Shown here one piece after another: positions 1 to 46,267 of a DNA stretch of 64,000 bases (its first letter is position 1; every line of letters starts with the position of its first letter). Source of the stretch: Sipunculus nudus (Eukaryota; Annelida; Sipuncula; Golfingiida; Sipunculidae). The notes beneath the pieces were generated by a model that saw only the letters and a list, made by a program, of their open reading frames with translations, was not told where the DNA came from and searched no databases. Location of the stretch: NCBI GenBank assembly GCA_026874595.1, contig CM049307.1, positions 57,152,870-57,216,869 of the forward strand, written 5' to 3'. The position numbers and the translations under genes were made by a program.

Positions 1-317
1 TAAAGCTATAAACGTGTGACAATTTCTTTTTAACATAACAGAATACGATACTGCATTTGCAAATGACATCTCACTATCAGGGGTTTATAATACTAGCTTT
101 TCCAATTCAACACAAACCTCAACTCAAGGCAGTGCATTCAATAGTGGTACCATACTTTGGTAGACACCGCATCACTGATCCGTTAAACGGTGTAAAGGCG
201 TATGATGATAGCGTTTAGTGATCACTGAAATCAAAGAAAATCGGCCTTGCCAAAATAATCGATAGAAACCGGCCAATTTGCTGTGATAGGTGGCGGGAAA
301 CAGATGGTCGATATCAC

Positions 318-389
318 GACTCCGTGGCGCACAGGTAGCGCGTCTGACTCCAGATCAGAAGGCTGCGTGTTTAAATCACGTCGGGGTCA
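318..389 (+). tRNA. tRNA-Trp(CCA), unit 1, T-loop variant
   Basis: A 72-nt cloverleaf without intron. Acceptor GACTCCG pairs with CGGGGTC (one T-G wobble at the fourth pair), D-stem GCGC/GCGC, anticodon loop CTCCAGA (anticodon CCA), T-stem GCGTG/CACGT, discriminator A. Internal promoters are A box TGGCGCA... and B box; transcription should stop at the TTTT at 399-402. This copy has the CACAGG form of the D-loop (most copies have CAACGG), C instead of T in the variable loop, and the T-loop reads TTTAAAT instead of TTCAAAT. That last change removes invariant C56, which is also the key C of the B box, so both transcription and folding are probably weakened. Confidence 0.93.
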
Positions 390-398
390 AGGATACTG

Positions 399-402
399 TT
401 TT
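399..402 (+). terminator. Pol III terminator of array tRNA-Trp
   Basis: A TTTT run starts 10 nt after the discriminator base. Two alleles occur across the array: 'gatactgtttt' (units 1, 3-7, 10, 12, 13, 15, 18, 24, 33) and 'gatactttt' with 2 bp less (the other units). Both keep four T residues, so termination should be preserved. Confidence 0.75.
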
Positions 403-770
403 CTCCCAGAATGCAGCTGTGCTGGAGCGATTGGCCGACGGAACCACTTGTCAATTGATCATTTCTTTTTTACATATTTTTTTTCAATATTTACCATTCA
501 ACGTCTTTTTTAAACTCTTTTCTGGCGCAAAATCCGACCAGGCAGTGATAACGGACATAGAGAATTTCTGACACTGTGAAAACTGAACTTAAACTGCAGG
601 AAAGGCAGTAGAAGACATTTGTTTCAACTATTTCCCCGTCTGGGGTCAAGGGGAATCATTATCCTCACTTCTGTAGTGTCTGAATATTCAGCCTAACAAT
701 TTATGTGCAAACCACAGGGCTTTGAGGAATAAAGACACCCAGAAATCACTCCTGTCTGTGAAAACGAAAT

Positions 771-775
771 AAAAA
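771..775 (-). terminator. Pol III terminator of array initiator tRNA-Met
   Basis: Read on the - strand, TTTTT begins 7 nt after the tRNA end, with a backup TTTT at 761-764. Most units keep it. In units 9 and 17 the run is broken to CTTCTTA, leaving only the backup, and in unit 21 it is shortened to TTTT. Confidence 0.75.
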
Positions 776-781
776 GGTTCT

Positions 782-853
782 TAGCAGAGCGTGGTTTCGA
801 TCCACGGACCTCTGAGTTATGAGCCCAGCACGCTTCCACTGCGCCACTCTGCT
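782..853 (-). tRNA. Initiator tRNA-Met(CAT), unit 1
   Basis: A 72-nt gene on the - strand. It is an initiator, not an elongator: acceptor AGCAGAG/CTCTGCT gives an A1-U72 pair, the T-loop is ATCGAAA (A54, A60) instead of TTC..., and the anticodon stem is G-rich (CTGGG). Anticodon loop CTCATAA gives CAT. A box TGGCGCAGTGG and B box GATCGAAAC match the Pol III consensus. Unlike the animal initiators I remember, the middle of the three conserved G-C pairs above the anticodon is G-T (CTGGG pairs with CTCAG); every array copy and the single copy at 52,031 share this. A short hairpin, GTGTCT-TTG-AGACAC, lies just upstream of the gene in most units. Confidence 0.95.
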
Positions 854-1326
854 ACATAATGTCGTGTGTCTTTGAGACACTGCACTGTAAATTCCCAGTT
901 GCGTCATCCATCCACGCAAACCAAGTCGCATTCGGCGATTGAATCGAAAGTGTAATATTGCCATTTTTACAGTATGGTATAATCTTCTTTTAAATTGCGT
1001 CATTTTCCATGTGGCGGAACCTCAGGCCAAAAGAATGAATTATCCTATCGTCCATGAGCATGTTCAGTCTTTGCACAGGCCGTTTTCCTAAGAGGAGAAA
1101 TGTACAGTTTATTCGCAATGTTGATAATTTAGGACAAATAGTCGCAGAAATATGCGCCCTCTCTTTGAATTAACCAAATCTAGTGTTTAACCTTTACACC
1201 TTACATTCGACCAGGTTATAACTAATTTCTCATCACCAAAACCTTGAGCATATGGCTCGTCAGTATAATAAGCAATGCCATATTAATTCCTGTGCACACT
1301 TTGATACACGCCTACATGCAATAAGG

Positions 1327-1988
1327 TAAAGCTATAAACGTGCGACCATTTCTTTAAACATAATAGAATACGATACTGCATTTGCAAATGACATCTCACT
1401 ATCAGGGGCTTATAATACTAGCTTTTTCATATCAACAGAAACCTCCACTCAAGGCAGTGCATTCAATAGTGGTACCATACTTTGGTAGACACCGCATCAC
1501 TGATCCGTTAAACGGTGTAAAGGCGTATGATGATAGCGTTTAGTGATCACTGAAATCATAGAAAATCGGCCTTGCCAAAATAATCGATAGAAACCGGCGA
1601 TTGAATCGAAAGTGTAATATTGCCATTTTTACAGTATGATATTATCTTCTTTGAAATTGCGTCATTCTCCATGTGGCGGAACCTCAGGCCAAAAGAATGA
1701 ATTATCCTATCGGCCATGAGCATGTTCAGTCTTTGCACAGGCCGGCTTCCTAAGAGGAGAAATGTACAGTTTATTCGCAATGTTGATAATTTAGGACAAA
1801 TAGTCGCAGAAATATGCGCCCTCTCTTTGAATTAACCAAATCTAGTGTTTAACCTTTACACCTTACATTCGACCAGGTTATAACTAATTTCTCATCACCA
1901 AAACCTTGAGCATATGGCTCGTCAGTATAATAAGCAATGCCATATTAATTCCTGTGCACACTTTGATACACGCCTACATGCAATAAGG
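1327..1988. repeat. Unit 2: short array unit that lost both tRNA genes
   Basis: This 662-bp unit follows the normal unit up to 'gatagaaaccgg' (about 1,597) and continues at 'cgattgaatcg', which normally lies downstream of the initiator gene. About 660 bp with both tRNAs are missing. The junction reads accggcgattg, and the two parent ends share 'cgg', consistent with a short-homology deletion. Confidence 0.93.
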
Positions 1989-2305
1989 TAAAGCTATAAA
2001 CGTGTGACAATTTCTTTTTAACATAACAGAATACGATACTGCATTTGCAAATGACATCTCACTATCAGGGGTTTATAATACTAGCTTTTCCAATTCAACA
2101 CAAACCTCAACTCAAGGCAGTGCATTCAATAGTGGTACCATACTTTGGTAGACACCGCATCACTGATCCGTTAAACGGTGTAAAGGCGTATGATGATAGC
2201 GTTTAGTGATCACTGAAATCAAAGAAAATCGGCCTTGCCAAAATAATCGATAGAAACCGGCCAATTTGCTGTGATAGGTGGCGGGAAACAGATGGTCGAT
2301 ATCAC

Positions 2306-2377
2306 GAATCCGTGGCGCACAGGTAGCGCGTCTGACTCCAGATCAGAAGGCTGCGTGTTCAAATCACGTCGGGTTCA
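2306..2377 (+). tRNA. tRNA-Trp(CCA), unit 3, compensatory acceptor pair
   Basis: CACAGG D-loop form with C in the variable loop. The acceptor 5' strand is GAATCCG and the 3' strand CGGGTTC, against GACTCCG and CGGGGTC elsewhere. Both partners of the third acceptor pair changed together, from C-G to A-U, so the stem still pairs fully. The B box is intact and TTTT follows. Confidence 0.94.
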
Positions 2378-2769
2378 AGGATACTGTTTTCTCCCAGAAT
2401 GCAGCTGTGCTGGAGCGATTGGCCGACGGAACCACTTGTCAATTGATCATTTCTTTTTTACATATTTTTTTTCAATATTTACCATTCAACGTCTTTTTTA
2501 AACTCTTTTCTGGCGCAAAATCCGACCAGGCAGTGATAACGGACATAGAGAATTTCTGACACTGTGAAAACTGAAATTAAACTGCAGGAAAGGCAGTAGA
2601 AGAAATTTGTTTCAACTATTTCCCCGTCTGGGGTCAAGGGGAATCATTATCCTCACTTCTGGAGGGTCTGAATATTCAGCCTAAAAATTTATGTGCAAAC
2701 CACAGGGCTTTGAAGAATAAAGACACGCAGAAATCACTCCTGTCTGTGAAAACGAAATAAAAAGGTTCT

Positions 2770-2841
2770 TAGCAGAGCGTGGTTTCGATCCACGGACCTC
2801 TGAGTTATGAGCCCAGCACGCTTCCACTGCGCCACTCTGCT
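2770..2841 (-). tRNA. Initiator tRNA-Met(CAT), unit 3
   Basis: Mature sequence identical to the unit 1 gene. The 5' flank hairpin is altered to cctgtgtcttt, which does not touch the gene. Confidence 0.95.
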
Positions 2842-3631
2842 ACATAATGTCCTGTGTCTTTGAGACACTGCACTGTAAATTCCCAGTTGCGTCATCCATC
2901 CACGCAAACCAAGTCGCATTCGGCGATTGAATCGAAAGTGTAATATTGCCATTTTTACAGTATGGTATTATCTTCTTTTAAATTGCGTCATTTTCCATGT
3001 GGCGGAACCTCAGGCCAAAAGAATGAATTATCCTATCGGCCATGAGCATGTTCAGTCTTTGCACAGGCCGGCTTCCTAAGAGGAGAAATGTACAGTTTAT
3101 TCGCAATGTTGATAATTTAGGACAAATAGTCGCAGAAATATGCGCCCTCTCTTTGCATTAACCAACGCTAGTGTTTAACCTTTAAACCTTACATTCGACC
3201 AGGTTATAACTAATTTCTCATCACCAAAACCTTGAGCATATGGCTCGTCAGTATAATAAGCAATGCCATATTAATTCCTGTGCACACTTTGATACACGCC
3301 TACATGCAATAAGTTAAAGCTATAAACGTGTGACAATTTCTTTTTAACATAACAGAATACGATACTGCATTTGCAAATGACATCTCACTATCAGGGGTTT
3401 ATAATACTAGCTTTTCCAATTCAACAGAAACCTCAACTCAAGGCAGTGCATTCAATAGTGGTACCATACTTTGGTAGACACCGCATCACTGATCCGTTAA
3501 ACGGTGTAAAGGCGTATGATGATAGCGTTTAGTGATCACTGAAATCAAAGAAAATCGGCCTTGCCAAAATAATCGATAGAACCCGGCCAATTTGCTGTGA
3601 TAGGTGGCGGGAAACAGATGGTCGATATCAC

Positions 3632-3703
3632 GACTCCGTGGCGCACAGGTAGCGCGTCTGACTCCAGATCAGAAGGCTGCGTGTTCAAATCACGTCGGGG
3701 TCA
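3632..3703 (+). tRNA. tRNA-Trp(CCA), unit 4, CACAGG form
   Basis: All stems pair as in the main form. It differs from the majority copy only by the CACAGG D-loop and C in the variable loop, the same haplotype as units 20, 24 and 27. This is the last tRNA-Trp before the two short units. Confidence 0.95.
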
Positions 3704-4095
3704 AGGATACTGTTTTCTCCCAGAATGCAGCTGTGCTGGAGCGATTGGCCGACGGAACCACTTGTCAATTGATCATTTCTTTTTTACATATTTTTTTTCA
3801 ATATTTACCATTCAACGTCTTTTTTAAACTCTTTTCTGGCGCAAAATCCGACCAGGCAGTGATAACGGACATAGAGAATTTCTGACACTGTGAAAACTGA
3901 ACTTAAACTGCAGGAAAGGCAGTAGAAGAAATTTGTTTCAACTATTTCCCCGTCTGGGGTCAAGGGGAATCATTATCCTCACTTCTGGAGGCTCTGAATA
4001 TTCAGCCTAACAATTTATGTGCAAACCACAGGGCTTTGAAGAATAAAGACACGCAGAAATCACTCCTGTCTGTGAAAACGAAATAAAAAGGTTCT

Positions 4096-4167
4096 TAGCA
4101 GAGCGTGGTTTCGATCCACGGACCTCTGAGTTATGAGCCCAGCACGCTTCCACTGCGCCACTCTGCT
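4096..4167 (-). tRNA. Initiator tRNA-Met(CAT), unit 4 first copy
   Basis: Consensus mature sequence. It is the first of three initiator genes in the enlarged unit 4 and the only one partnered with a full tRNA-Trp. Confidence 0.95.
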
Positions 4168-4699
4168 ACATAATCGTGTGTCTTTGAGACACTGCACTGT
4201 AAATTCCAAGTTGCGTAATCCATCCACGCAAACCAAGTCGCATTCGGCGATTGAATCGAAAGTGTAATATTGCCATTTTTACAGTATGGTATTATCTTCT
4301 TTTAAATTGCGTCATTTTCCATGTGGCGGAACCTCAGGCCAAAAGAATGAATTATCCAAATCACGTCGGAGTCAAGGATACTGTTTTCTCCCAGAATGCA
4401 GCTGTGCTGGAGCGATTGGCCGACGGAACCACTTGTCAATTGATCATTTCTTTTTTACATATTTTTTTTTCAATATTTACCATTCAACGTCTTTTTTAAA
4501 CTCTTTTCTGGCGCAAAATCCGACCAGGCAGTGATAACGGACATAGAGAATTTCTGACACTGTTAAAACTGAACTTAAACTGCAGGAAAGGCAGTAGAAG
4601 AAATTTGTTTCAACTAATTTATGTGCAAACCACAGGGCTTTGAGGAATAAAGACACCCAGAAATCACTCCTGTCTGTGAAAACGAAATAAAAAGGTTCT

Positions 4700-4771
4700 T
4701 AGCAGAGCGTGGTTTCGATCCACGGACCTCTGAGTTATGAGCCCAGCACGCTTCCACTGCGCCACTCTGCT
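4700..4771 (-). tRNA. Initiator tRNA-Met(CAT), first short unit
   Basis: Consensus mature sequence inside the first 606-bp short unit, with no convergent tRNA-Trp partner. Confidence 0.95.
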
Positions 4772-5305
4772 ACATAATGTCGTGTGTCTTTGAGACACTG
4801 CACTGTAAATTCCAAGTTGCGTAATCCATCCACGCAAACCAAGTCGCATTCGGCGATTGAATCGAAAGTGTAATATTGCCATTTTTACAGTATGGTATTA
4901 TCTTCTTTTAAATTGCGTCATTTTCCATGTGGCGGAACCTCAGGCCAAAAGAATGAATTATCCAAATCACGTCGGGGTCAAGGATACTGTTTTCTCCCAG
5001 AATGCAGCTGTGCTGGAGCGATTGGCCGACGGAACCACTTGTCAATTGATCATTTCTTTTTTACATATTTTTTTTTCAATATTTACCATTCAACGTCTTT
5101 TTTAAACTCTTTTCTGGCGCAAAATCCGACCAGGCAGTGATAACGGACATAGAGAATTTCTGACACTGTTAAAACTGAACTTAAACTGCAGGAAAGGCAG
5201 TAGAAGAAATTTGTTTCAACTAATTTATGTGCAAACCACAGGGCTTTGAGGAATAAAGACACCCAGAAATCACTCCTGTCTGTGAAAACGAAATAAAAAG
5301 GTTCT

Positions 5306-5377
5306 TAGCAGAGCGTGGTTTCGATCCACGGACCTCTGAGTTATGAGTCCAGCACGCTTCCACTGCGCCACTCTGCT
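5306..5377 (-). tRNA. Initiator tRNA-Met(CAT), second short unit, anticodon-stem variant
   Basis: Carries CTGGA instead of CTGGG in the anticodon stem, turning the pair next to the loop from G-C into an A-C mismatch. This is one of the three G-C pairs that mark initiators, so function is doubtful although promoter boxes are intact. Confidence 0.85.
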
Positions 5378-6165
5378 ACATAATCGTGTGTCTTTGAGAC
5401 ACTGCACTGTAAATTCCCAGTTGCGTCATCCATCCACGCAAACCAAGTCGCATTCGGCGATTGAATCGAAAGTGTAATATTGCCATTTTTACAGTATGGT
5501 ATTATCTTCTTTTAAATTGCGTCATTCTCCATGTGGCGGAACCTCAGGCCAAAAGAATGAATTATCCTATCGGCCATGAGCATGTTCAGTCTTTGCACAG
5601 GCCGGCTTCCTAAGAGGAGAAATGTACAGTTTATTCGCATTGTTGATAATTTAGGACAAATAGTCGCAGAAATATGCGCCCTCTCTTTGCATTAACCAAC
5701 GCTAGTGTTTAACCTTTACACCTTACATTCGACCAGGTTATAACTAATTTCTCATCACCAAAACCTTGAGCATATGGCTCGTCAGTATAATAAGCAATGC
5801 CATATTAATTCCTGTGCACACTTTGATACACGCCTTCATGCAATAAGGTAGAGCTATAAACGTGTGACAATTTCTTTTTAACATAACAGAATACGATACT
5901 GCATTTGCAAATGACATCTCACTATCAGGGGTTTATAATACTAGCTTTTCCAATTCAACAGAAACCTCAACTCAAGGCAGTGCATTCAATAGTGGTACCA
6001 TACTTTGGTAGACACCGCATCACTGATCCGTTAAACGGTGTAAAGGCGTATGATGATAGCGTTTAGTGATCACTGAAATCAAAGAAAATCGGCCTTGCCA
6101 AAGTAAGCGACAGAAACCGGCCAATTTGCTGTGATAGGTGGCGGGAAACAGATGGTCGATATCAC

Positions 6166-6237
6166 GACTCCGTGGCGCAACGGTAGCGCGTCTGACTCCA
6201 GATCAGAAGGTTGCGTGTTCAAATCACGTCGGGGTCA
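6166..6237 (+). tRNA. tRNA-Trp(CCA), unit 5, majority form
   Basis: First copy of the majority mature sequence (CAACGG D-loop, T in the variable loop), shared exactly by 21 array genes and the single gene at 59,929-60,000. The B box GTTCAAATC matches consensus. Confidence 0.97.
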
Positions 6238-6631
6238 AGGATACTGTTTTCTCCCAGAATGCAGCTGTGCTGGAGCGATTGGCCGACGGAACCACTTGTC
6301 AAGTGATCATTTCTTTTTTACATATTTTTTTTTTCAACATTTACCATTCAACGTCTTTTTTAAACTCTTTTCTGGCGCAAAATCCCACCAGGCAGTGATA
6401 ACGGACATAGAGAATTTCTGACACTGTTAAAACTGAACTTAAACTGCAGGAAAGGCAGTAGAAGAAATTTGTTTCAACTATTTCCCCGTCTGGGATCAAG
6501 GGGAATCATTATCCTCACTTCTGGAGGCTCTGAATATTCAGCCTAACAATTTATGTGCAAACCACAGGGCTTTGAGGAATAAAGACACCCAGAAATCACT
6601 CCTGTCTGTGAAAACGAAATAAAAAGGTTCT

Positions 6632-6693
6632 TAGCAGAGCGTGGTTTCGATCCACGGACCTCTGAGTTATGAGCCCAGCACGCTTCCACTGCT
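6632..6693 (-). pseudogene. Initiator tRNA-Met with 10-nt deletion, unit 5
   Basis: 62 nt instead of 72. On the + strand 'cactgcgccactctgctac' has become 'cactgctac'; the deletion lies between two 'ctgc' copies. It removes most of the acceptor 5' strand and the start of the D-arm, including most of the A box, so no cloverleaf can form. The same lesion is in unit 11. Confidence 0.93.
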
Positions 6694-7483
6694 ACATAAT
6701 GTCGTGTGTCTTTGAGACACTGCACTGTAAATTCCCAGTTGCGTCATCCATCCACGCAAACCAAGTCGCATTCGGCGATTGAATCGAAAGTGTAATATTG
6801 CCATTTTTACAGTATGGTATTATCTTCTTTTAAATTGCGTCATTTTCCATGTGGCGGAACCTCAGGCCAAAAGAATGAATTATCCTATCGTACATGAGCA
6901 TGTTCAGTCTTTGCACAGGCCGGCTTCCTAAGAGGAGAAATGTACAGTTTATTCGCAATGTTGATAATTTAGGACAAATAGTCGCAGAAATATGCGCCCT
7001 CTCTTTGCATTAACAAACGCTAGTGTTTAACCTTTAAACCTTACATTCGACCAGGTTATAACTAATTTCTCATCACCAAAACCTTGAGCATATGGCTCGT
7101 CAGTATAATAAGCAATGCCATATTAATTCCTTTGCACACTTTGATACACGCCTACATGCAATAAGTTAAAGCTATAAACGTGTGACAATTTCTTTTTAAC
7201 ATAACAGAATACGATACTGCATTTGCAAATGACATCTCACTATCAGGGGTTTATAATACTAGCTTTTCCAATTCAACAGAAACCTCAACTCAAGGCAGTG
7301 CATTCAATAGTGGTACCATACTTTGGTAGACACCGCATCACTGATCCGTTAAACGGTGTAAAGGCGTATGATGATAGCGTTTAGTGATCACTGAAATCAA
7401 AGAAAATCGGCCTTGCCAAAGTAAGCGACAGAAACCGGCCAATTTGCTGTGATAGGTGGCGGGAAACAGTTGGTCGATATCAC

Positions 7484-7555
7484 GACTCCGTGGCGCAACG
7501 GTAGCGCGTCTGACTCCAGATCAGAAGGTTGCGTGTTCAAATCACGTCGGGGTCA
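7484..7555 (+). tRNA. tRNA-Trp(CCA), unit 6, majority form
   Basis: Majority mature sequence. The 5' flank reads cagttggtcg instead of cagatggtcg, a marker shared with units 7, 12 and 13. Confidence 0.97.
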
Positions 7556-7948
7556 AGGATACTGTTTTCTCCCAGAATGCAGCTGTGCTGGAGCGATTGG
7601 CCGACGGAACCACTTGTCAAGTGATCATTTCTTTTTTACATATTTTTTTTTCAACATTTACCATTCAACGTCTTTTTTAAACTCTTTTCTGGCGCAAAAT
7701 CCGACCAGGCAGTGATAACGGACATAGAGAATTTCTGACACTGTTAAAACTGAACTTAAACTGCAGGAAAGGCAGTAGAAGAAATTTGTTTCAACTATTT
7801 CCCCGTCTGGGGTCAAGGGGAATCATTATCCTCACTTCTGGAGGGTCTGAATATTCAGCCTAACAATTTATGTGCAAACCACAGGGCTTTGAGGAATAAA
7901 GACACCCAGAAATCACTCCTGTCTGTGAAAACGAAATAAAAAGGTCCT

Positions 7949-8020
7949 TAGCAGAGCGTGGTTTCGATCCACGGACCTCTGAGTTATGAGCCCAGCACGC
8001 TTCCACTGAGCCACTCTGCT
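7949..8020 (-). tRNA. Initiator tRNA-Met(CAT), unit 6, D-stem mismatch
   Basis: The D-stem 5' strand is GCTC instead of GCGC, creating a T-C mismatch and altering the A box. The 3' flank has ggtcctta in place of ggttctta. Both changes recur in unit 12, so they were copied as a block. Probably weakened. Confidence 0.85.
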
Positions 8021-8810
8021 ACATAATGTCGTGTGTCTTTGAGACACTGCACTGTAAATTCCCAGTTGCGTCATCCATCCACGCAAACCAAGTCGCATTC
8101 GGCGATTGAATCGAAAGTGTAATATTGCCATTTTTACAGTATGGTATTATCTTCTTTTAAATTGCGCCATTTTCCATGTGGCGGAACCTCAGGCCAAAAG
8201 AATGAATTATCCTATCGTACATGAGCATGTTCAGTCTTTGCACAGGCCGGCTTCCTAAGAGGAGAAATGTACAGTTTATTCGCAATGTTGATAATTTAGG
8301 ACAAATAGTCGCAGAAATATGCGCCCTCTCTTTGCATTAACCAACGCTAGTGTTTAACCTTTAAACCTTACATTCGACCAGGTTATAACTAATTTCTCAT
8401 CACCAAAACCTTGAGCATATGGCTCGTCAGTATAATAAGCAATGCCATATTAATTCCTTTGCACACTTTGATACACGCCTACATGCAATAAGTTAAAGCT
8501 ATAAACGTGTGACAATTTCTTTTTAACATAACAGAATACGATACTGCATTTGCAAATGACATCTCACTATCAGGGGTTTATAATACTAGCTTTTCCAATT
8601 CAACAGAAACCTCAACTCAAGGCAGTGCATTCAATAGTGGTACCATACTTTGGTAGACACCGCATCACTGATCCGTTAAACGGTGTAAAGGCGTATGATG
8701 ATAGCGTTTAGTGATCACTGAAATCAAAGAAAATCGGCCTTGCCAAAGTAAGCGACAGAAACCGGCCAATTTGCTGTGATAGGTGGCGGGAAACAGTTGG
8801 TCGATATCAC

Positions 8811-8882
8811 GACTCCGTGGCGCAACGGTAGCGCGTCTGACTCCAGATCAGAAGGTTGCGTGTTCAAATCACGTCGGGGTCA
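8811..8882 (+). tRNA. tRNA-Trp(CCA), unit 7, majority form
   Basis: Majority mature sequence, cagttggtcg 5' flank and the long (tgtttt) terminator allele, matching unit 13. Confidence 0.97.
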
Positions 8883-14107: not shown

Positions 14108-14179
14108 GACTCCGTGGCGCAACGGTAGCGCGTCTGACTCCAGATCAGAAGGTTGCGTGTTCAAATCACGTCGGGGTCA
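14108..14179 (+). tRNA. tRNA-Trp(CCA), unit 11, majority form
   Basis: Majority mature sequence, short terminator allele; spacer marker 'gtcattttta' is shared with units 19, 20 and 26. Confidence 0.97.
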
Positions 14180-14569: not shown

Positions 14570-14631
14570 TAGCAGAGCGTGGTTTCGATCCACGGACCTC
14601 TGAGTTATGAGCCCAGCACGCTTCCACTGCT
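14570..14631 (-). pseudogene. Initiator tRNA-Met with 10-nt deletion, unit 11
   Basis: Same 10-nt deletion as unit 5, 7.94 kb away, with matching flanking markers. The two broken genes are copies of one event. Confidence 0.93.
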
Positions 14632-21257: not shown

Positions 21258-22045
21258 ACATAATCGTGTGTCTTTGAGACACTGCGCTGTAAATTCCCAG
21301 TTGCGTCATCCATCCACGCAAACCAAGTCGCATTCGGCGATTGAATCGAAAGTGTAATATTGCCATTTTTACAGTATGGTATTATCTTCTTTTAAATTGC
21401 GTCATTCTCCATGTGGCGGAACCTCAGGCCAAAAGAATAAATTATCCTATCGGCCATGAGCATGTTCAGTCTTTGCACAGGCCGGCTTCCTAAGAGGAGA
21501 AATGTACAGTTTATTCGCATTGTTGATAATTTAGGACAAATAGTCGCAGAAATATGCGCCCTCTCTTTGCATTAACCAACGCTAGTGTTTAACCTTTACA
21601 CCTTACATTCGACCAGGTTATAACTAATTTCTCATCACCAAAACCTTGAGCATATGGCTCGTCAGTATAATAAGCAATGCCATATTAATTCCTGTGCACA
21701 CTTTGATACACGCCTTCATGCAATTAGGTAAAGCTATAAACGTGTGACAATTTCTTTTTAACATAACAGAATACGATACTGCATTTGCAAATGACATCTC
21801 ACTATCAGGGGTTTATAATACTAGCTTTTCCAATTCAACAGAAACCTCAACTCAAGGCAGTGCATTCAATAGTGGTACCATACTTTGGTAGACACCGCAT
21901 CACTGATCCGTTAAACGGTGTAAAGGCGTATGATGATAGCGTTTAGTGATCACTGAAATCAAAGAAAATTGGCCTTGCCAAAATAATCGATAGAAACCGG
22001 CCAATTTGCTGTGATAGGTGGCGGGAAACAGATGGTCGATATCAC

Positions 22046-22117
22046 GACTCCGTGGCGCAACGGTAGCGCGTCTGACTCCAGATCAGAAGGTTGCGTGTTC
22101 AAATCACGTCGGGGTCA
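22046..22117 (+). tRNA. tRNA-Trp(CCA), unit 17, majority form
   Basis: Majority mature sequence. From about here on the unit matches unit 9, while its first part resembles other units, so it is a hybrid. Confidence 0.97.
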
Positions 22118-22509
22118 AGGATACTTTTCTCCCAGAATGCAGCTGTGCTGGAGCGATTGGCCGACGGAACCACTTGTCAAGTGATCATTTCTTTTTTACA
22201 TATTTTTTTTTTCAACATTTACCATTCAACGTCTTTTTTAAACTCTTTTCTGGCGCAAAATCCGACCAGGCAGTGATAACGGACATAGAGAATTTCTGAC
22301 ACTGTTAAAACTGAACTTAAACTGCAGGAAAGGCAGTAGAAGAAATTTGTTTCAACTATTTCCCCGTCTGGGGTCAAGGGGAATCATTATCCTCACTTCT
22401 GGAGGCTCTGAATATTCAGCCTAACAATTTATGTGCAAACCACAGGGCTTTGAGGAATAAAGACACCCAGGTATCACTCCTGTCTGTGAAAACGAAATAA
22501 GAAGGTTCT

Positions 22510-22581
22510 TAGCAGAGCGTGGTTTCGATCCACGGACCTCTGAGTTATGAGCCCAGCACGCTTCCACTGCGCCACTCTGCT
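22510..22581 (-). tRNA. Initiator tRNA-Met(CAT), unit 17, altered terminator
   Basis: Consensus gene with the same interrupted T5 terminator and 'gtcgggtgtc' flank as unit 9. Confidence 0.93.
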
Positions 22582-23370
22582 ACATAATGTCGGGTGTCTT
22601 TGAGACACTGCGCTGTAAATTCCCAGTTGCGTCATCCATCCACGCAAACCAAGTCGCATTCGGCGATTGAATCGAAAGTGTAATATTGCCATTTTTACAG
22701 TATGATATTATCTTCTTTTAAATTGCGTCATTCTCCATGAGGCGGAACCTCAGGCCAAAAGAATGAATTATCCTATCGGCCATGAGCATGTTCAGTCTTT
22801 GCACAGGCCGGCTTCCTAAGAGGAGAAATGTACAGTTTATTCGCAATGTTGATAATTTAGGACAAATAGTCGCAGAAATATGCGACCTCTCTTTGAATTA
22901 ACCAACGCTAGTGTTTAACCTTTACACCTTACATTCGACCAGGTTATAACTAATTTCTCATCACCAAAACCTTGAGCATATGGCTCGTCAGTATAATAAG
23001 CAATGCCATATTAATTCCTGTGCACACTTTGATACACGCCTACATGCAATAAGGTAAAGCTATAAACGTGTGACAATTTCTTTAAACATAACAGAATACG
23101 ATACTGCATTTGCAAATGACATCTCACTATCAGGGGTTTATAATACTAGCTTTTTCATATCAACAGAAACCTCCACTCAAGGCAGTGCATTCAATAGTGG
23201 TACCATACTTTGGTAGACACCGCGTCACTGATCCGTTAAACGGTGTAAAGGCGTATGATGATAGCGTTTAGTGATCACTGAAATCAAAGAAAATCGGCCT
23301 TGCCAAAATAATCGATAGAAACCGGCCAATTTGCTGTGATAGGTGGCGGGAAACAGATGGTCGATATCAC

Positions 23371-37051: not shown

Positions 37052-37123
37052 TAGCAGAGCGTGGTTTCGATCCACGGACATCTGAGTTATGAGCCCAGCA
37101 CGCTTCCACTGCGCCACTCTGCT
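37052..37123 (-). tRNA. Initiator tRNA-Met(CAT), unit 28, variable-loop variant
   Basis: The variable loop reads ATGTC instead of AGGTC, a G-to-T change shared by units 28-31 only, marking them as one recent expansion. Stems are unaffected. Confidence 0.92.
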
Positions 37124-37913
37124 ACATAATGTTCTGTGTCTTTGAGACACTGCAGTGTAAATTCCCAGTTGCGTCATCCGTCCACGCAAACCAAGTCGCA
37201 TTCGGCGATTGAATCGAAAGTGTAATATTGCCATTTTTACAGTATGGTATTATCTTCTTTTAAATTGCGTCATTCTCCATGTGGCGGAACCTCAGGCCAA
37301 AAGAATGAATTATCCTATCGGCCATGAGCATGTTCAGTCTTTGCACAGGCCGGCTTCCTAAGAGGAGAAATGTACAGTTTATTCGCAATGTTGATAATTT
37401 AGGACAAATTGTCGCAGAAATATGCGCCCTCTCTTTGAATTAACCAACGCTAGTGTTTAACCTTTACACCTTACATTCGACCAGGTTATAACTAATTTCT
37501 CATCACCAAAACCTTGAGCATATGGCTCGTCAGTATAATAAGCAATGCCATATTAATTCCTGTGCACACTTTGATACACGCCTTCATGCAATAAGGTAAA
37601 GCTATAAAAGTGTGACAATTTCTTTTTAACATAACAGAATACGATACTGCATTTGCAAATGACATCTCACTATCAGGGGTTTATAATACTAGCTTTTTCA
37701 TATTAACAGAAACCTCCACTCAAGGCAGTGCATTCAATAGTGGTACCATACTTTGGTAGACACCGCATCACTGATCCGTTAAACGGTGTAAAGGCGTATG
37801 ATGATAGCGTTTAGTGATCACTGAAATCAAAGAAAATTGGCCTTGCCAAAATAATCGATAGAAACCGGCCAATTTGCTGTGATAGGTGGCGGGAAACAGA
37901 TGGTCGATATCAC

Positions 37914-37985
37914 GACTCCGTGGCGCAACGGTAGCGCGTCTGACTCCAGATCAGAAGGTTGCGTGTTCAAATCACGTCGGGGTCA
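37914..37985 (+). tRNA. tRNA-Trp(CCA), unit 29, majority form
   Basis: Majority mature sequence. Confidence 0.97.
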
Positions 37986-38375
37986 AGGATACTTTTCTCC
38001 CAGAATGCAGCTGTGCTGGAGCGATTGGCCGACGGAACCACTTGTCAAGTGATCATTTCTTTTTTACATATTTTTTTTTCAACATTTACCATTCAACGTC
38101 ATTTTAAACTCTTTTCTGGCGCAAAATCCGACCAGGCAGTGATAACGGACATAGAGAATTTCTGACACTGTGAAAACTGAACTTAAACTGCAGGAAAGGC
38201 AGTAGAAGAAATTTGTTTCAACTATTTCCCCGTCTGGGGTCCAGGGGAATCATTATCCTCACTTCTGGACAGTCTGAATATTCAGCCTAACAATTTATGT
38301 GCAAACCACAGGGCTTTGAGGAATAAAGACACCCAGAAATCACTCCTGTCTGTGAAAACGAAATAAAAAGGTTCT

Positions 38376-38447
38376 TAGCAGAGCGTGGTTTCGATCCACG
38401 GACATCTGAGTTATGAGCCCAGCACGCTTACACTGCGCCACTCTGCT
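38376..38447 (-). tRNA. Initiator tRNA-Met(CAT), unit 29, D-loop GG lost
   Basis: Has the ATGTC variable loop and, uniquely, AGTGTAA in the D-loop instead of AGTGGAA. This replaces the second G of the invariant GG pair that contacts the T-loop and alters the end of the A box. Probably defective. Confidence 0.82.
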
Positions 38448-39236
38448 ACATAATGTTCTGTGTCTTTGAGACACTGCAGTGTAAATTCCCAGTTGCGTCA
38501 TCCATCCACGCAAACCAAGTCGCATTCGGCGATTGAATCGAAAGTGTAATATTGCAATTTTTACAGTATGATATTATCTTCTTTTAAATTGCGTCATTCT
38601 CCATGTGGCGGAACCTCAGGCCAAAAGAATGAATTATCCTATCGGCCATGAGCATGTTCAGTCTTTGCACAGGCCGGCTTCCTAAGAGGAGAAATGTACA
38701 GTTTATTCGCAATGTTGATAATTTAGGACAAATAGTCGCAGAAATATGCGCCCTCTCTTTGAATTAACCAACGCTAGTGTTTAACCTTTACACCTTACAT
38801 TCGACCAGGTTATAACTAATTTCTCATCACCAAAACCTTGAGCATATGGCTCGTCAGTATAATAAGCAATGCCATATTAATTCCTGTGCACACTTTGATA
38901 CACGCCTACATGCAATAAGGTAAAGCTATAAACGTGTGACAATTTCTTTAAACATAACAGAATACGATACTGCATTTGCAAATGACATCTCACTATCAGG
39001 GGTTTATAATACTAGCTTTTTCATATCAACAGAAACCTCCACTCAAGGCAGTGCATTCAATAGTGGTACCATACTTTGGTAGACACCGCATCACTGATCC
39101 GTTAAACGGTGTAAAGGCGTATGATGATAGCGTTTAGTGATCACTGAAATCAAAGAAAATTGGCCTTGCCAAAATAATCGATAGAAACCGGCCAATTTGC
39201 TGTGATAGGTGGCGGGAAACAAATGGTCGATATCAC

Positions 39237-39308
39237 GACTCCGTGGCGCAACGGTAGCGCGTCTGACTCCAGATCAGAAGGTTGCGTGTTCAAATCACGT
39301 CGGGGTCA
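39237..39308 (+). tRNA. tRNA-Trp(CCA), unit 30, majority form
   Basis: Majority mature sequence; 5' flank aaatggtcg instead of agatggtcg. Confidence 0.97.
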
Positions 39309-39698
39309 AGGATACTTTTCTCCCAGAATGCAGCTGTGCTGGAGCGATTGGCCGACGGAACCACTTGTCAAGTGATCATTTCTTTTTTACATATTTTTTT
39401 TTCAACATTTACCATTCAACGTCATTTTAAACTCTTTTCTGGCGCAAAATCCGACCAGGCAGTGATAACGGACATAGAGAATTTCTGACACTGTGAAAAC
39501 TGAACTTAAACTGCAGGAAAGGCAGTAGAAGAAATTTGTTTCAACTATTTCCCCATCTGGGGTCAAGGGGAATCATTATCCTCACTTCTGGAGGGTCTGA
39601 ATATTCAGCCTAACAATTTATGTGCAAACCACAGGGCTTTGAGGAATAAAGACACCCAGAAATCACTCCTGTCTGTGAAAACGAAATAAAAAGGTTCT

Positions 39699-39770
39699 TA
39701 GCAGAGCGTGGTTTCGATCCACGGACATCTGAGTTATGAGCCCAGCACGCTTCCACTGCGCCACTCTGCT
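39699..39770 (-). tRNA. Initiator tRNA-Met(CAT), unit 30, variable-loop variant
   Basis: Same ATGTC variable loop as unit 28, and the same 'gtcatccgtcc' 5' spacer. Confidence 0.92.
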
Positions 39771-40560
39771 ACATAATGTTCTGTGTCTTTGAGACACTGC
39801 AGTGTAAATTCCCAGTTGCGTCATCCGTCCACGCAAACCAAGTCGCATTCGGCGATTGAATCGAAAGTGTAATATTGCCATTTTTACAGTATGGTATTAT
39901 CTTCTTTTAAATTGCGTCATTCTCCATGTGGCGGAACCTCAGGCCAAAAGAATGAATTATCCTATCGGCCATGAGCATGTTCAGTCTTTGCACAGGCCGG
40001 CTTCCTAAGAGGAGAAATGTACAGTTTATTCGCAATGTTGATAATTTAGGACAAATTGTCGCAGAAATATGCGCCCTCTCTTTGAATTAACCAACGCTAG
40101 TGTTTAACCTTTACACCTTACATTCGACCAGGTTATAACTAATTTCTCATCACCAAAACCTTGAGCATATGGCTCGTCAGTATAATAAGCAATGCCATAT
40201 TAATTCCTGTGCACACTTTGATACACGCCTTCATGCAATAAGGTAAAGCTATAAAAGTGTGACAATTTCTTTTTAACATAACAGAATACGATACTGCATT
40301 TGCAAATGACATCTCACTATCAGGGGTTTATAATACTAGCTTTTTCATATTAACAGAAACCTCCACTCAAGGCAGTGCATTCAATAGTGGTACCATACTT
40401 TGGTAGACACCGCATCACTGATCCGTTAAACGGTGTAAAGGCGTATGATGATAGCGTTTAGTGATCACTGAAATCAAAGAAAATTGGCCTTGCCAAAATA
40501 ATCGATAGAAACCGGCCAATTTGCTGTGATAGGTGGCGGGAAACAGATGGTCGATATCAC

Positions 40561-40632
40561 GACTCCGTGGCGCAACGGTAGCGCGTCTGACTCCAGATCA
40601 GAAGGTTGCGTGTTCAAATCACGTCGGGGTCA
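40561..40632 (+). tRNA. tRNA-Trp(CCA), unit 31, majority form
   Basis: Majority mature sequence. Confidence 0.97.
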
Positions 40633-41022
40633 AGGATACTTTTCTCCCAGAATGCAGCTGTGCTGGAGCGATTGGTCGACGGAACCACTTGTCAAGTGAT
40701 CATTTCTTTTTTACATATTTTTTTTTCAACATTTACCATTCAACGTCATTTTAAACTCTTTTCTGGCGCAAAATCCGACCAGGCAGTGATAACGGACATA
40801 GAGAATTTCTGACACTGTGAAAACTGAACTTAAACTGCAGGAAAGGCAGTAGAAGAAATTTGTTTCAACTATTTCCCCATCTGGGGTCAAGGGGAATCAT
40901 TATCCTCACTTCTGGAGGGTCTGAATATTCAGCCTAACAATTTATGTGCAAACCACAGGGCTTTGAGGAATAAAGACACCCAGAAATCACTCCTGTCTGT
41001 GAAAACGAAATAAAAAGGTTCT

Positions 41023-41094
41023 TAGCAGAGCGTGGTTTCGATCCACGGACATCTGAGTTATGAGCCCAGCACGCTTCCACTGCGCCACTCTGCT
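41023..41094 (-). tRNA. Initiator tRNA-Met(CAT), unit 31, variable-loop variant
   Basis: Same ATGTC variable loop as units 28-30; last member of this expansion. Confidence 0.92.
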
Positions 41095-41884
41095 ACATAA
41101 TGTTCTGTGTCTTTGAGACACTGCAGTGTAAATTCCCAGTTGCGTCATCCGTCCACGCAAACCAAGTCGCATTCGGCGATTGAATCGAAAGTGTAATATT
41201 GCCATTTTTACAGTATGGTATTATCTTCTTTTAAATTGCGTCATTCTCCATGTGGCGGAACCTCAGGCCAAAAGAATGAATTATCCTATCGGCCATGAGC
41301 ATGTTCAGTCTTTGCACAGGCCGGCTTCCTAAGAGGAGAAATGTACAGTTTATTCGCAATGTTGATAATTTAGGACAAATTGTCGCAGAAATATGCGCCC
41401 TCTCTTTGAATTAACCAACGCTAGTGTTTAACCTTTACACCTTACATTCGACCAGGTTATAACTAATTTCTCATCACCAAAACCTTGAGCATATGGCTCG
41501 TCAGTATAATAAGCAATGCCATATTAATTCCTGTGCACACTTTGATACACGCCTTCATGCAATAAGGTAAAGCTATAAAAGTGTGACAATTTCTTTTTAA
41601 CATAAAAGAATACGATACTGCATTTGCAAATGACATCTCACTATCAGGGGTTTATAATACTAGCTTTTTCATATCAACAGAAACCTCCACTCAAGGCAGT
41701 GCATTCAATAGTGGTACCATACTTTGGTAGACACCGCATCACTGATCCGTTAAACGGTGTAAAGGCGAATGATGATAGCGTTTAGTGATCACTGAAATCA
41801 AAGAAAATTGGCCTTGCCAAAATAATCGATAGAAACCGGCCAATTTGCTGTGATAGGTGGCGGGAAACAGATGGTCGATATCAC

Positions 41885-41956
41885 GACTCCGTGGCGCAAC
41901 GGTAGCGCGTCTGACTCCAGATCAGAAGGTTGCGTGTTCAAATCACGTCGGGGTCA
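41885..41956 (+). tRNA. tRNA-Trp(CCA), unit 32, majority form
   Basis: Majority mature sequence; 3' spacer 'acaaatcaacg' as in units 21 and 27. Confidence 0.97.
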
Positions 41957-42347
41957 AGGATACTTTTCTCCCAGAATGCAGCTGTGCTGGAGCGATTGGC
42001 CGACGGAACCACTTGTCAAGTGATCATTTCTTTTTTACATATTTTTTTTTCAACATTTACAAATCAACGTCTTTTTTGAACTCTTTTCTGGCGCAAAATC
42101 CGACCAGGCAGTGAATACGGACATAGAGAATTTCTGACACTGTGAAAACTGAACTTAAACTGCAGGAAAGGCAGTAGAAGAAATTTGTTTCAACTATTTC
42201 CCCGTCTGGGGTCAAGGGGAATCATTATCCTCACTTCTGGAGGGTCTGAATATTCAGCCTTACAATTTATGTGCAAACCACAGGGCTTTGAGGAATAAAG
42301 ACACCCAGAAATCACTCTTGTCTGTGAAAACGAAATAAAAAGGTTCT

Positions 42348-42419
42348 TAGCAGAGCGTGGTTTCGATCCACGGACCTCTGAGTTATGAGCCCAGCACGCT
42401 TCCACTGCGCCACTCTGCT
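42348..42419 (-). tRNA. Initiator tRNA-Met(CAT), unit 32
   Basis: Consensus mature sequence; last intact, undisturbed initiator gene of the array. Confidence 0.95.
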
Positions 42420-43209
42420 ACATAATGTCGAGTGTCTTTGAGACACTCCGCTGTAAATTCCCAGTTGCGTCATCCATCCACGCAAACCAAGTCGCATTCG
42501 GCGATTGAATCGAAAGTGTAATATTGCCATTTTTACAGTATGGTATTATCTTCTTTTAAATTGCGTCATTCTCCATGTGGCGGAACCTCAGGCCAAAAGA
42601 ATGAATTATCCTATCGGCCATGAGCATGTTCAGTCTTTGCACAGGCCGGCTTCCTAAGAGGAGAAATGTACAGTTTATTCGCAATGTTGATAATTTAGGA
42701 CAAATAGTCGCAGAAATATGCGCCCTCTCTTTGAATTAACCAACGCTAGTGTTTAACCTTTACACCTTACATTCGACCAGGTTATAACTAATTTCTCATC
42801 ACCAAAACCTTGAGCATATGGCTCGTCAGTATAATAAGCAATGCCATATTAATTCCTGTGCACACTTTGATACACGCCTTCATGCAATAAGGTAAAGCTA
42901 TAAACGTGTGACAATTTCTTTTTAACATAACAGAATACGATACTGCATTTGCAAATGACATCTCACTATCAGGGGTTTATAATACTAGCTTTTCAAATTC
43001 AACAGAAACCTCAACTCAAGGCAGTGCATTCAATAGTGGTACCATACTTTGGTAGACACCGCATCACTGATCCGTTAAACGGTGTAAAGGCGTATGATGA
43101 TAGCGTTTAGTGATCACTGAAATCAAAGAAAATCGGCCTTGCCAAAATAATCGATAGAAACCGGCCAATTTGCTGTGATAGGTGGCGGGAAACAGATGGT
43201 CGGTATCAC

Positions 43210-43281
43210 GACTCCGTGGCGCAACGGTAGCGCGTCTGACTCCAGATCAGAAGGTTGCGTGTTCAAATCACGTCGGGGTCA
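43210..43281 (+). tRNA. tRNA-Trp(CCA), unit 33, majority form
   Basis: Majority mature sequence; flank 'cggtatcac' instead of 'cgatatcac'. Its convergent partner is the initiator gene split by the insertion. Confidence 0.97.
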
Positions 43282-43673
43282 AGGATACTGTTTTCTCCCA
43301 GAATGCAGCTGTGCTGGAGCGATTGGCCGACGGAAGCACTTGTCAAGTGATCATTTCTTTTTTACATATTTTTTTTCAATATTTACCATTCAACGTCTTT
43401 TTTAAACTCTTTTCTGGCGCAAAATCCGACCAGGCAGTGATAACGGACATAGAGAATTTCTGACACTGTGAAAACTGAACTTAAACTGCAGGAAAGGCAG
43501 TAGAAGAAATTTGTTTCAACTATTTCCCCGTCTGGGGTCAAGGGGAATCATTATCCTCACTTCTGGAGGGTCTGAATATTCAGCCTAACAATTTATGTGC
43601 AAACCACAGGGCTTTGAGGAATAAAGACACCCAGAATTCACTCCTGTCTGTGAAAACGAAATAAAAAGGTTCT

Positions 43674-44502
43674 TAGCAGAGCGTGGTTTCGATCCACGGA
43701 CCTCTGAGTTATGAGCCAAGCACGCTTCATCCATAACCGTTACACCGCTCAGGCAATAACTAGGGTTTCTACGCCGCAGTTTTGCCTCTTCGGGTCCCCC
43801 TCATTCTGCACTGAGGTCGCCAGAACTGACACGCCAGCTAGCCAGCTAGGTCCGGCCCGCCCTCGCCAACAGTCAACCACCGAGGAATCCCCCAGGTGTT
43901 CCGGGAGCCTGAGCCTCGCAACCTGCCAGTAATGTCCGAGCGCTACCGGCCTGCCCCTGGACTATTCGCAGTCCCGTCATGAGCCTTGTCCCTTTCGACC
44001 AGGTACAGCTCTCGTTCGATCGGAGCCTTCTCGGGAGCCTTCTCTGGTGCTTTTGCCATCATGTCTTGAGCCTTGTCCCTGCTGGTCCTGACCGGACCCC
44101 CGGTTATTATGACGTCTTGGAGCCTTGTCCCTGATCCTTTCGGGATCCCCGTAACTTTTTCCACCAAACGGCTGGCTCTACAGGGCCAGGTTCCATACTG
44201 CCGGCAACAGGCTGGCCTACTCTTCTATCGAAAAACAGTATGGGGTCTTTTACGTGCCCGTCCCCTTCTGGACACGGGACCGCCATTTAACGTCCTCATC
44301 CGATGGACGGCCCGTGTTTGTCTTTTGCAGGCGGGCGCTGCGGTGCCCCGGAGCCTTTCTACCCTTCCCCCACTTTCTCTAGTGGGGTGATAATACTGGG
44401 TTTCCGTCTGCCACTGATCTTTTGCCAGTCGAGCCACATTTTGAGGTCTTTATAAAACTTCTCTTGCTTCACCTTTTCACGCTTCCACTGCGCCACTCTG
44501 CT
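43674..44502 (-). pseudogene. Initiator tRNA-Met split by a 749-bp insertion, unit 33
   Basis: The 3' part lies at 43674-43728 and the 5' part at 44478-44502, with 8 bp present in both. The anticodon stem also has G-to-T (gagccaagc on the + strand). The Pol III A and B boxes are now more than 700 bp apart, so no tRNA is expected. Confidence 0.93.
43729..44477. mobile_element. GC-rich insertion with 8-bp target-site duplication
   Basis: 749 bp of unrelated, visibly more GC-rich DNA flanked by exact CACGCTTC (43721-43728 and 44478-44485), a clean 8-bp duplication of the initiator D-arm region. I see no terminal inverted repeat (ends atccataacc and cttcaccttt) and no A-tail. 'gagccttgtccct' occurs three times (43981, 44068, 44120). 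On the - strand a frame from 44475 stays open for about 38 codons (it includes FYKDLKMWLDW) before a stop; no family is recognised. Eight-bp duplications fit hAT or P elements, but the missing inverted repeats argue for a defective, composite or unknown element. Confidence 0.8.
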
Positions 44503-44600
44503 ACATAATCGGGAGTTTTTGAGACACTGCGCTGTAAATTTTCTCCCAGAATGCAGCTGTGCTGGAGCGATTGGCCGACGGAACCACTTGTCAAGTGATC
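44503..44600. repeat. Deletion junction inside unit 33
   Basis: After the 5' end of the split initiator gene the spacer runs to 'gctgtaaatt' (about 44,540) and then jumps to 'ttctcccagaatgcagctg', which normally lies just 3' of tRNA-Trp. About 780 bp, including the next unit's tRNA-Trp, are gone. The following initiator gene therefore has no partner. Confidence 0.88.
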
Positions 44601-44925
44601 ATTTCTTTTTTACATATTTTTTTTAACATTTACCATTCAACGTCTTTTTTAAACTCTTTTCTGGCGCAAAATCCGACCAGGCAGTGACAACGGACATAGA
44701 GAATTTCTGACACTGTGAAAACTGAACTGAAACTGCAGGAAAGGCAGTAGAAGAAATTTGTTTCAACTATTTCCCCATCTGGGGTCAAGGGGAATCATTA
44801 TCCTCACTTCTGGAGGGTCTGAATATTCAGCCTAACAATTTATGTGCAAACCACAGGGCTTTGTGGAATGGAATAAAGACACCCAGATATCACTCCTGTC
44901 TGTGAAAACGACATAAAAAGGTTCT

Positions 44926-44997
44926 TAGCAGAGCGTGGTTTAGATCCACGGACCTCTGAGTTATGAGCCCAGCACGCTTCCACTGCGCCACTCTGCT
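44926..44997 (-). pseudogene. Initiator tRNA-Met with T-loop/B-box lesion
   Basis: The T-loop reads ATCTAAA instead of ATCGAAA, replacing the conserved purine 57 with T and breaking the B box (GATCTAAAC). The rest is full length. Probably inactive, though a weak gene cannot be excluded. Confidence 0.75.
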
Positions 44998-45786
44998 ACA
45001 TAATGTCGTGTGTCTTTGAGACACTGCACTGTAAATTCCCAGTTGCGTCATCCATCCACGCAAACCAAGTCGCATTCGGCGATTGAATCGAAAGTGTAAT
45101 ATTGCCATTTTTACAATATGATATTATCTTCTTTTAAATTGCGTCATTCTCCATGTGGCGGAACCTCAGGCCAAAAGAATGAATTATCCTATCGGTCATG
45201 CGCATGTTCAGTCTTTGCACAGGCCGGCTTCCTAAGAGGAGAAATGTACAGTTTATTCGCAATGTTGATAATTTAGGACAAATAGTCGCAGAAATATGCG
45301 CCCTCTCTTTGAATTAACCAACGCTAGTGTTTAACCTTTACACCTTACATTCGACCAGGTTATAACTAATTTCTCATCACCAAAACCTTGAGCATATGGC
45401 TCGTCAGTATAATAAGCAATGCCATATTAATTCCTGTGCACACTTTGATACACGCCTTCATGCAATAAGGTAAAGCTATAAACGTGTGACAATTTCTTTA
45501 AACATAACAGAATACGATACTGCATTTGCAAATGACATCTCGCTATCAGGGGTTTATAATACTAGCTTTTTCATATCAACAGAAACCTCCACTCAAGGCA
45601 GTGCATTCAATAGTGGTACCATACTTTGGTAGACACCGCATCACTGATCCGTTAAACGGTGTAAAGGCGTATGATGATAGCGTTTAGTGATCACTGAAAT
45701 CAAAGAAAATTGGCCTTGCCAAAATAATCGATAGAAACCGGCCAATTTGCTGTGATAGGTGGCGGGAAACAGATGGTCGATATCAC

Positions 45787-45858
45787 GACTCCGTGGCGCA
45801 ACGGTAGCGCGTCTGACTCCAGATCAGAAGGTTGCGTGTTCAAATCACGTCGGGGTCA
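45787..45858 (+). tRNA. tRNA-Trp(CCA), unit 34, majority form
   Basis: Majority mature sequence; last intact tRNA gene of the array. Downstream 'ggaagcacttg' is shared with unit 33. Confidence 0.97.
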
Positions 45859-46248
45859 AGGATACTTTTCTCCCAGAATGCAGCTGTGCTGGAGCGATTG
45901 GCCGACGGAAGCACTTGTCAAGTGATCATTTCTTTTTTACATATTTTTTTTCAACATTTACCATTCAACGTCTTTTTTAAACTCTTTTCTGGCGCAAAAT
46001 CCGACCAGGCAGTGATAACGGACATAGAGAATTTCTGACACTGTGAAAACTGAACTTAAACTGCAGGAAAGGCAGTAGAAGAAATTTGTTTCAACTATTT
46101 CCCCGTCTGGGGTCAAGGGGAATCATTATCCTCACTTCTGGAGGGTCTGAATATTCAGCCTTACAATTTATGTGCAAACCACAGGGCTTTGAGGAATAAA
46201 GACACCCAGAAATCACTCCTGTCTGTGAAAACGAAATAAAAAGGTTCT

Positions 46249-46267
46249 TAGCAGAGCGTGGTTTCGA
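46249..46267 (-). pseudogene. Truncated initiator tRNA-Met at the array edge
   Basis: Only about 19 nt of the 3' end remain; at 'gtttcga' the sequence switches to 'aacctcaactcaagg' from the unit's 5' spacer. Confidence 0.9.

Follow-up and report, generated by a model that had tools for sequence, protein, structure and literature searches.

A tandem array of paired tRNA-Trp and initiator tRNA-Met genes, one of several tRNA gene arrays in the genome of Sipunculus nudus

In the parts of the literature drawn on here and below, tandem arrays of tRNA genes are called unusual outside Entamoeba, with Hydractinia as a recent animal exception, and the chromosome 1 tRNA gene (tDNA) macrosatellite is the only mammalian case named (PMC11067881). 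Almost all tRNA genes of Entamoeba lie in 25 kinds of tandem array (PMC2652664), and a survey of 74 genomes recorded tRNA clusters of at least 50 members, for example in Nematostella and in teleosts (PMC2888827). Here we describe a tandem array from Sipunculus nudus whose repeat unit pairs a tRNA-Trp gene with an initiator tRNA-Met gene, and which fills the left part of a 64-kb window (the whole stretch of DNA analysed, C2:57,152,870-57,216,869, where C2 is the contig that carries it). Among animals, a tandem tDNA repeat is also known from Xenopus laevis, with a larger unit that holds several different tRNA genes. A limited search of the open-access literature found no description of Trp and initiator Met genes paired in one tandem unit, and none of tRNA arrays in molluscs or bivalves.

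Each of the closest described systems resembles the present locus in some respects and departs from it in others. Hydractinia is likewise an animal in which many isoacceptors are arrayed, there for all 20 amino acids; it is a cnidarian and has arrays of other non-coding RNAs too, whereas nine tRNA cores were sampled in the present genome (PMC11067881). Entamoeba shares with it distinct arrays of one to several defined tRNA genes per unit, their homogenisation and a small number of dispersed copies, but is a protist in which arrays make up more than 10% of the genome and units contain short tandem repeats and, in some cases, 5S genes (PMC2652664). Between the genes of the present array (window 1-46,651), Tandem Repeats Finder reported no short tandem repeats at a minimum score of 50 and a period of up to 500. 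The partner of Trp also differs, being Ile in the Entamoeba array [WI] and Met here (PMC2652664). The chromosome 1 macrosatellite of human and mouse, too, consists of tandem tRNA-bearing units in an animal; the human unit, however, is 7.3 kb long and GC-rich, carries Leu, Gly, Glu and Asp genes as well as a CTCF site, and is present in 9-43 units per allele (PMC4041453). The Arabidopsis Ser/Tyr (SYY) cluster is similarly a long tandem array in which a few tRNA genes recur in a fixed combination, but it belongs to a plant and is epigenetically silenced in most tissues (PMC12308677).

Structure, extent and confinement of the array

ARAGORN placed 33 tRNA-Trp genes on the forward strand and 32 tRNA-Met genes on the reverse strand of the array, between window positions 318 and 45,858, the same counts that a preliminary description of the window had given for Trp and full-length initiator genes. 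All 65 score 51-68 bits under the Rfam tRNA model. The repeat period is approximately 1,324 bp, with 29 of 32 Trp-to-Trp spacings falling between 1,314 and 1,327 bp; the exceptions (1,988, 2,534 and 2,577 bp) have partial units or an insertion between the genes. Trp and Met genes are convergent, and their 3′ ends lie 386-393 bp apart in the 29 pairs measured. A spacer word free of tRNA sequence occurs 33 times inside the window, close to the 34 units previously claimed. The satellite-like, convergent organisation already described for the window is borne out. We take the Met gene to be an initiator by its A1:U72 ends and AUCGAAA T-loop; it has uridine at position 33. The array and its reference unit are located as follows, in window coordinates.

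1-46651, forward strand: right-hand ~46.7 kb of the ~100.5-kb array of Trp and initiator Met genes, from comparison of the unit with the chromosome
22046-23370, forward strand: reference repeat unit, 1,325 bp
22046-22117, forward strand: tRNA-Trp(CCA) of the reference unit, in the majority sequence, with 21 of the 33 window copies identical
22510-22581, reverse strand: initiator tRNA-Met(CAT) of the reference unit, in the majority sequence, with 22 of the 32 window copies identical

TTTT starts at most 10 nt past the 3′ end in 33/33 Trp genes of the array in the window, and at most 20 nt past it in 32/32 initiator genes. tRNA genes carry internal RNA polymerase III (Pol III) promoters, and an amplified segment that contains them is thus transcribable. 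Because every gene would retain its internal promoter together with its own TTTT terminator, the array is most likely a reservoir of gene dosage, and its genes are presumably transcribed. In our view the locus is probably an array for Pol III gene dosage that arose through unequal exchange and whose units concerted evolution keeps alike.

The extent of the array was determined by adding 60 kb on the left and 20 kb on the right to the window and comparing the unit with all 144 kb. In the one assembly from which its size is estimated, the whole array spans C2:57,099,065-57,199,520, about 100.5 kb, of which the window holds slightly less than half. It had been described as open at the left window edge, and it does continue leftward for approximately 53.8 kb, to C2:57,099,065. 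This left flank contains 35 further initiator genes and at least 13 further Trp genes, bringing the totals to 67 initiator and at least 46 Trp genes (33 + 13). Published counts for three bivalves are 8-14 Trp and 30-42 initiator genes, numbers that the present array exceeds on its own (PMC9679248).

We found the spacer of the array to be confined to it within the searched assembly (1.43 Gb, 153 contigs; all core counts given here and below are of readable matches). A 40-base spacer word, searched with up to 3 mismatches, had 76 genome matches, all 76 within the array, and no dispersed copies of the flanking sequence were seen. The 36-base initiator core, with up to 2 mismatches, gave 72 genome matches, so that most initiator genes (67/72) reside in the array; the 5 outside it are at C2:57,204,906, at C2:59,897,589, on C11 and twice on C14, and all 5 have the array-majority sequence in unrelated flanks. 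The Trp core had 25 readable matches, all of them in the array. Reversed control patterns for the spacer word and the initiator core matched nowhere in the genome. With its complete tRNA genes in near-identical units arranged head to tail, the locus belongs to the class of tandem tRNA arrays. This confinement also bears on the idea that the units are tandem copies of a mobile element with tRNA sequence, such as a Helenus-like terminal-repeat retrotransposon in miniature (TRIM) or a short interspersed nuclear element (SINE), for which tRNA-derived Helenus elements of bivalves offer a precedent (PMC10886601). We rejected it, as the spacer word lies nowhere else in the genome at up to 3 mismatches; in addition, each unit carries two intact genes of standard type, and a search of the genome with the whole unit (common words skipped) returned only tRNA bodies elsewhere, in 9 matches. 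A mobile origin of the array thus appears extremely unlikely.

With one isolated Met and one isolated Trp gene to the right of the array, ARAGORN reported 67 tRNA genes in the window. The Rfam model found 70 places at or above its cut-off; the 3 beyond ARAGORN's 67 lie at 6,632, 14,570 and 43,674, score 30-31 bits and are copies of the initiator gene that are truncated or chimeric. These irregular copies, the right end of the array and the two isolated genes are as follows.

6632-6693, reverse strand: truncated initiator gene copy (Rfam tRNA model)
14570-14631, reverse strand: truncated initiator copy, whose unit is 99.85% identical to the unit at 6,166, six positions away
43729-44477, no strand: 749-bp insertion within an initiator gene, lying between the two copies of an 8-bp direct repeat at 43,721-43,728 and 44,478-44,485
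46266-46651, forward strand: scrambled, degenerate end of the array, with unit pieces in the wrong order and a remnant Trp gene
52031-52102, forward strand: isolated initiator tRNA-Met, identical to the array majority, in unrelated flanks (ARAGORN)
59929-60000, reverse strand: isolated tRNA-Trp, identical to the array majority, in unrelated flanks, 13 kb right of the array (ARAGORN)

The weak chimeric tRNA-like match at the junction of the 749-bp insertion arises by chance. Two points of the preliminary description are revised by these features: it ended the array at 46,267, whereas scrambled remnants reach about 46,651, and it spoke of a single Trp tRNA, although the isolated Trp gene carries the array-majority sequence outside the array. 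The region right of the array also has imperfect tandem repeats with periods of 146 and 438, rich in GTGACCTTGACCTTTGACC (window 49,310-50,155). Two open reading frames of at least 130 aa are present in the window.

Other tandem tRNA arrays in the genome

Tandem arrays of tRNA genes number at least seven in this genome, alongside one looser cluster; array organisation is widespread in it, and the arrays serve different isoacceptors. For each of nine tRNA cores sampled, most of the listed matches fell at one place, or at two places in the case of two Val isoacceptors. Cores for Asp, Val, Gly, Glu, Ile and Phe were modelled on human tRNA genes, the search allowing up to 3 mismatches, and a genome-wide search for the tRNA family, in which 63 of 100,426 candidates were scored, revealed the array on C9. 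The Val core had 133 matches, of which 100 were listed, and all Val counts are among the matches listed. The arrays found beside that of the window are the following.

C9:40,605,442-40,766,413: array of Lys-UUU and elongator Met, with 93 of 99 Lys cores
C2:24,964,055-25,126,717: array of Asp and Val-AAC, whole locus
C2:24,966,640-25,112,438: Asp part of this array, with 14 of 19 Asp cores
C2:24,964,055-25,109,417: Val-AAC part of this array, with 33 of 37 AAC cores among the matches listed
C5:41,617,641-41,786,278: Val-CAC array, with 60 of 62 two-mismatch cores among the matches listed
C14:50,251,807-50,361,131: Gly-GCC array, with 51 of 59 cores, spacing often ~2,085 bp
C16:37,660,459-37,742,466: Glu-CTC array, with 42 of 52 cores
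C5:242,713-362,591: Ile-GAU array, with 30 of 34 cores
C8:78,916,488-79,072,585: loose Phe cluster of irregular spacing, with 6 of 6 cores in 156 kb

On C9, tRNA-Lys(TTT) alternates with elongator tRNA-Met from 40,605,000 to 40,714,999, with a period of mostly 1,669-1,693 bp and a few shorter or longer steps. Asp and Val genes on C2 are interleaved, 8 of the 14 Asp cores having a Val core at a distance of 1,284-1,298 bp; Val-AAC steps are mostly 3.9 and 4.3 kb, and one further Val match in this stretch has the anticodon TAC. The Ile-GAU array consists of two runs of 15 cores, 55 kb apart, with steps of mostly 2.2 kb. The Ile pattern matched only cores with the anticodon GAT, and to our knowledge numerous Ile-GAU genes are unusual in an animal nucleus.

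These arrays bear on the pairing of Met with Trp, which the preliminary description had held to be possibly undescribed. In other arrays of the same genome Lys is joined by elongator Met, and Asp by Val, and so the Met/Trp pairing is not a special start-tRNA unit and needs no functional reason. We rejected a special meaning for it, given the different partners found elsewhere; an accident of the founder segment explains it best.

Two side observations concern tRNA genes outside the arrays. At C14:19,252,640-19,252,820, a tRNA-Arg(TCT)-like sequence, judged by eye, ends about 11 bp upstream of an isolated tRNA-Lys gene. The small contigs C115 and C121, one stretch of each of which was scanned, carry tRNA genes for Lys/Asn and Thr/Leu. 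At 76-86 nt these genes have a bacterial look to the eye, and the contigs are possibly from a contaminant or symbiont.

Homogenisation and history of the array

Across 28 consecutive units (6,166 to 43,209), mean identity is 98.1%, with a range of 96.7-100%. Because the units are this alike and the reversed controls gave no match, a chance origin of the array is excluded. Identity between units peaks at a lag of six units (98.6%) and of one unit (98.5%). The units at 6,166, 7,484 and 10,136 are 99.85-100% identical to those six positions on, at 14,108, 15,422 and 18,074, and several other units have their closest relative seven or eight positions away. That nearest relatives stand six to eight units apart suggests block duplication. 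In the left half of the array, blocks that recur at offsets of 15,324 and 17,286 bp match at 99.9-100% identity across 2.8-9.8 kb, and one of them enters the window.

1-6170, forward strand: part of a block repeated 17,286 bp upstream; the match, 9,757 bp long with 2 mismatches, extends past the left window edge

We propose that the array arose from a founder segment, bearing a single Trp and a single initiator Met gene, through unequal exchange and the duplication of blocks. Unequal exchange would make the array grow and shrink by units or blocks, which the identity pattern fits, and concerted evolution would keep the units alike, so that the consensus is held while individual broken copies are harmless. 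The array may in this way act as a dosage reservoir for initiator and Trp tRNAs, alongside a few dispersed copies.

Several observations weigh against a dosage role. Over the 28 units, 16 of 144 positions vary in the tRNA genes and 97 of 1,179 in the spacer (Fisher p 0.27), and nucleotide diversity (pi) is 0.0179 in genes and 0.0180 in spacer. Without the two units that carry truncated initiator genes the counts are 11/144 and 95/1,179 (p 1.0), with pi of 0.0141 and 0.0174. Single copies thus give no clear indication that selection acts on them. Most cores also have dispersed copies, among them Glu (10 of 52) and Asp (5 of 19). The copy number of the array is also uncertain, as its left half could include assembly copies.

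The similar variability of genes and spacer points to homogenisation, not to any detectable selection on each copy, as what sets the level of variation. We accordingly rejected purifying selection on every copy of the array. The same similarity would be expected of a neutral satellite that carries tRNA genes by chance and has no net role, as would the scrambled right edge and the insertion that interrupts one gene. Against such a non-functional satellite, the majority sequence is kept in 21 of the 33 Trp genes and in 22 of the 32 initiator genes and equals that of the dispersed genes, and the same accident would have to be assumed for each of the six other arrays, and for the Phe cluster too; we therefore hold it to be unlikely. 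The level of variation also fits redundant dosage copies, as the gene-dosage array that we favour would contain.

The identical blocks of the left half could be recent block duplications or assembly copies, and they are the point that speaks for the array, or its left half, being an assembly artefact. The 28 right-hand units, however, are distinct from one another, and the deletions in a few copies, the private insertion and the unique right edge likewise argue against artefact, which we regard as very improbable.

An upstream motif, possible regulation and meaning

The motif GGCGGGAAA lies upstream of the Trp genes in the array. In the reference unit it is placed as follows.

22020-22028, forward strand: GGCGGGAAA, starting 26 bp upstream of the Trp gene

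It is found at exactly this distance in 33/33 Trp units, with a 34th copy in the scrambled edge, at 46,566. The isolated Trp gene has the one-letter variant GGCGGAAAA, starting 29 bp upstream (60,029). This is the sole GGCGGRAAA on either strand in the 17.3 kb to the right of the array, against an expectation of 0.13 for both strands. The examined part of the C9 array holds 54 copies of GGCGGGAAA for 65 elongator Met cores, 53 of them 174 bp and one 170 bp upstream of the Met gene. GGCGGRAAA was not found in three 10-kb loci around isolated initiator genes, nor upstream of six isolated Lys genes (by eye, in limited upstream letters). Its absence at these genes led us to reject it as a general tRNA element, and it would at most be confined to Trp genes and the elongator Met genes of C9. 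A spacer common to the C2 and C9 arrays was also rejected, since matches between them are only 9-13 bp long, with E of about 2 or more. GGCGGGAAA is, we presume from its resemblance, E2F-like, as a candidate only. The motif was spotted post hoc, and we treat it as a candidate element and as a lead only.

The fixed position of GGCGGGAAA in two otherwise unrelated arrays would also be in keeping with a chromatin or boundary domain, bound by Pol III and TFIIIC, in which tRNA output is secondary. Such a domain has been proposed for the human tDNA repeat at 1q23.3, where CTCF binding provides a precedent (PMC4041453). Given that GGCGGGAAA was noticed post hoc, and that the units of the two arrays share other exact 9-10-bp words with E of about 2 or more, we consider a boundary domain to be quite unlikely.

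Somewhat greater weight may be given to a developmentally switched reservoir, for example one specific to oocytes, that most tissues would keep silent, leaving housekeeping to the dispersed copies. Silencing and activation by stage is possible for the present array by analogy with the Arabidopsis Ser/Tyr cluster, whose silence in most tissues is lifted in root-tip cells (PMC12308677). All 5 initiator genes outside the array keep its majority sequence in unrelated flanks, while genes within it vary about as much as spacers, which would suit a division between array and housekeeping copies. Xenopus oocyte tRNA-Tyr genes, in comparison, are of a variant type. Here the array majority is the same as the dispersed genes and no oocyte-type isoform was seen in the array, and we regard a switched reservoir as conceivable, if on the unlikely side. 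A broader and rather doubtful proposal, built on the sequence comparisons above, is that a bilaterian has independently evolved an Entamoeba-like set, with most nuclear tRNA genes in isoacceptor-specific satellites of one or two genes, approximately 80-170 kb long and at one locus per isoacceptor. Such arrays might be switched together, as the constant position of GGCGGGAAA in each of two unrelated arrays could hint, flooding eggs or dividing cells with tRNA and leaving a few strictly conserved dispersed copies to serve other tissues.

The gene-dosage array remains our preferred reading of the locus. Tandem tRNA arrays have been known until now mainly from an amoeba and a hydroid, and a second animal case, with two-gene units, would make tRNA dosage, homogenisation and the expression of arrayed versus dispersed genes directly testable. 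In genomes of this kind, tRNA gene counts reflect the length of arrays, which is likely to vary among individuals.

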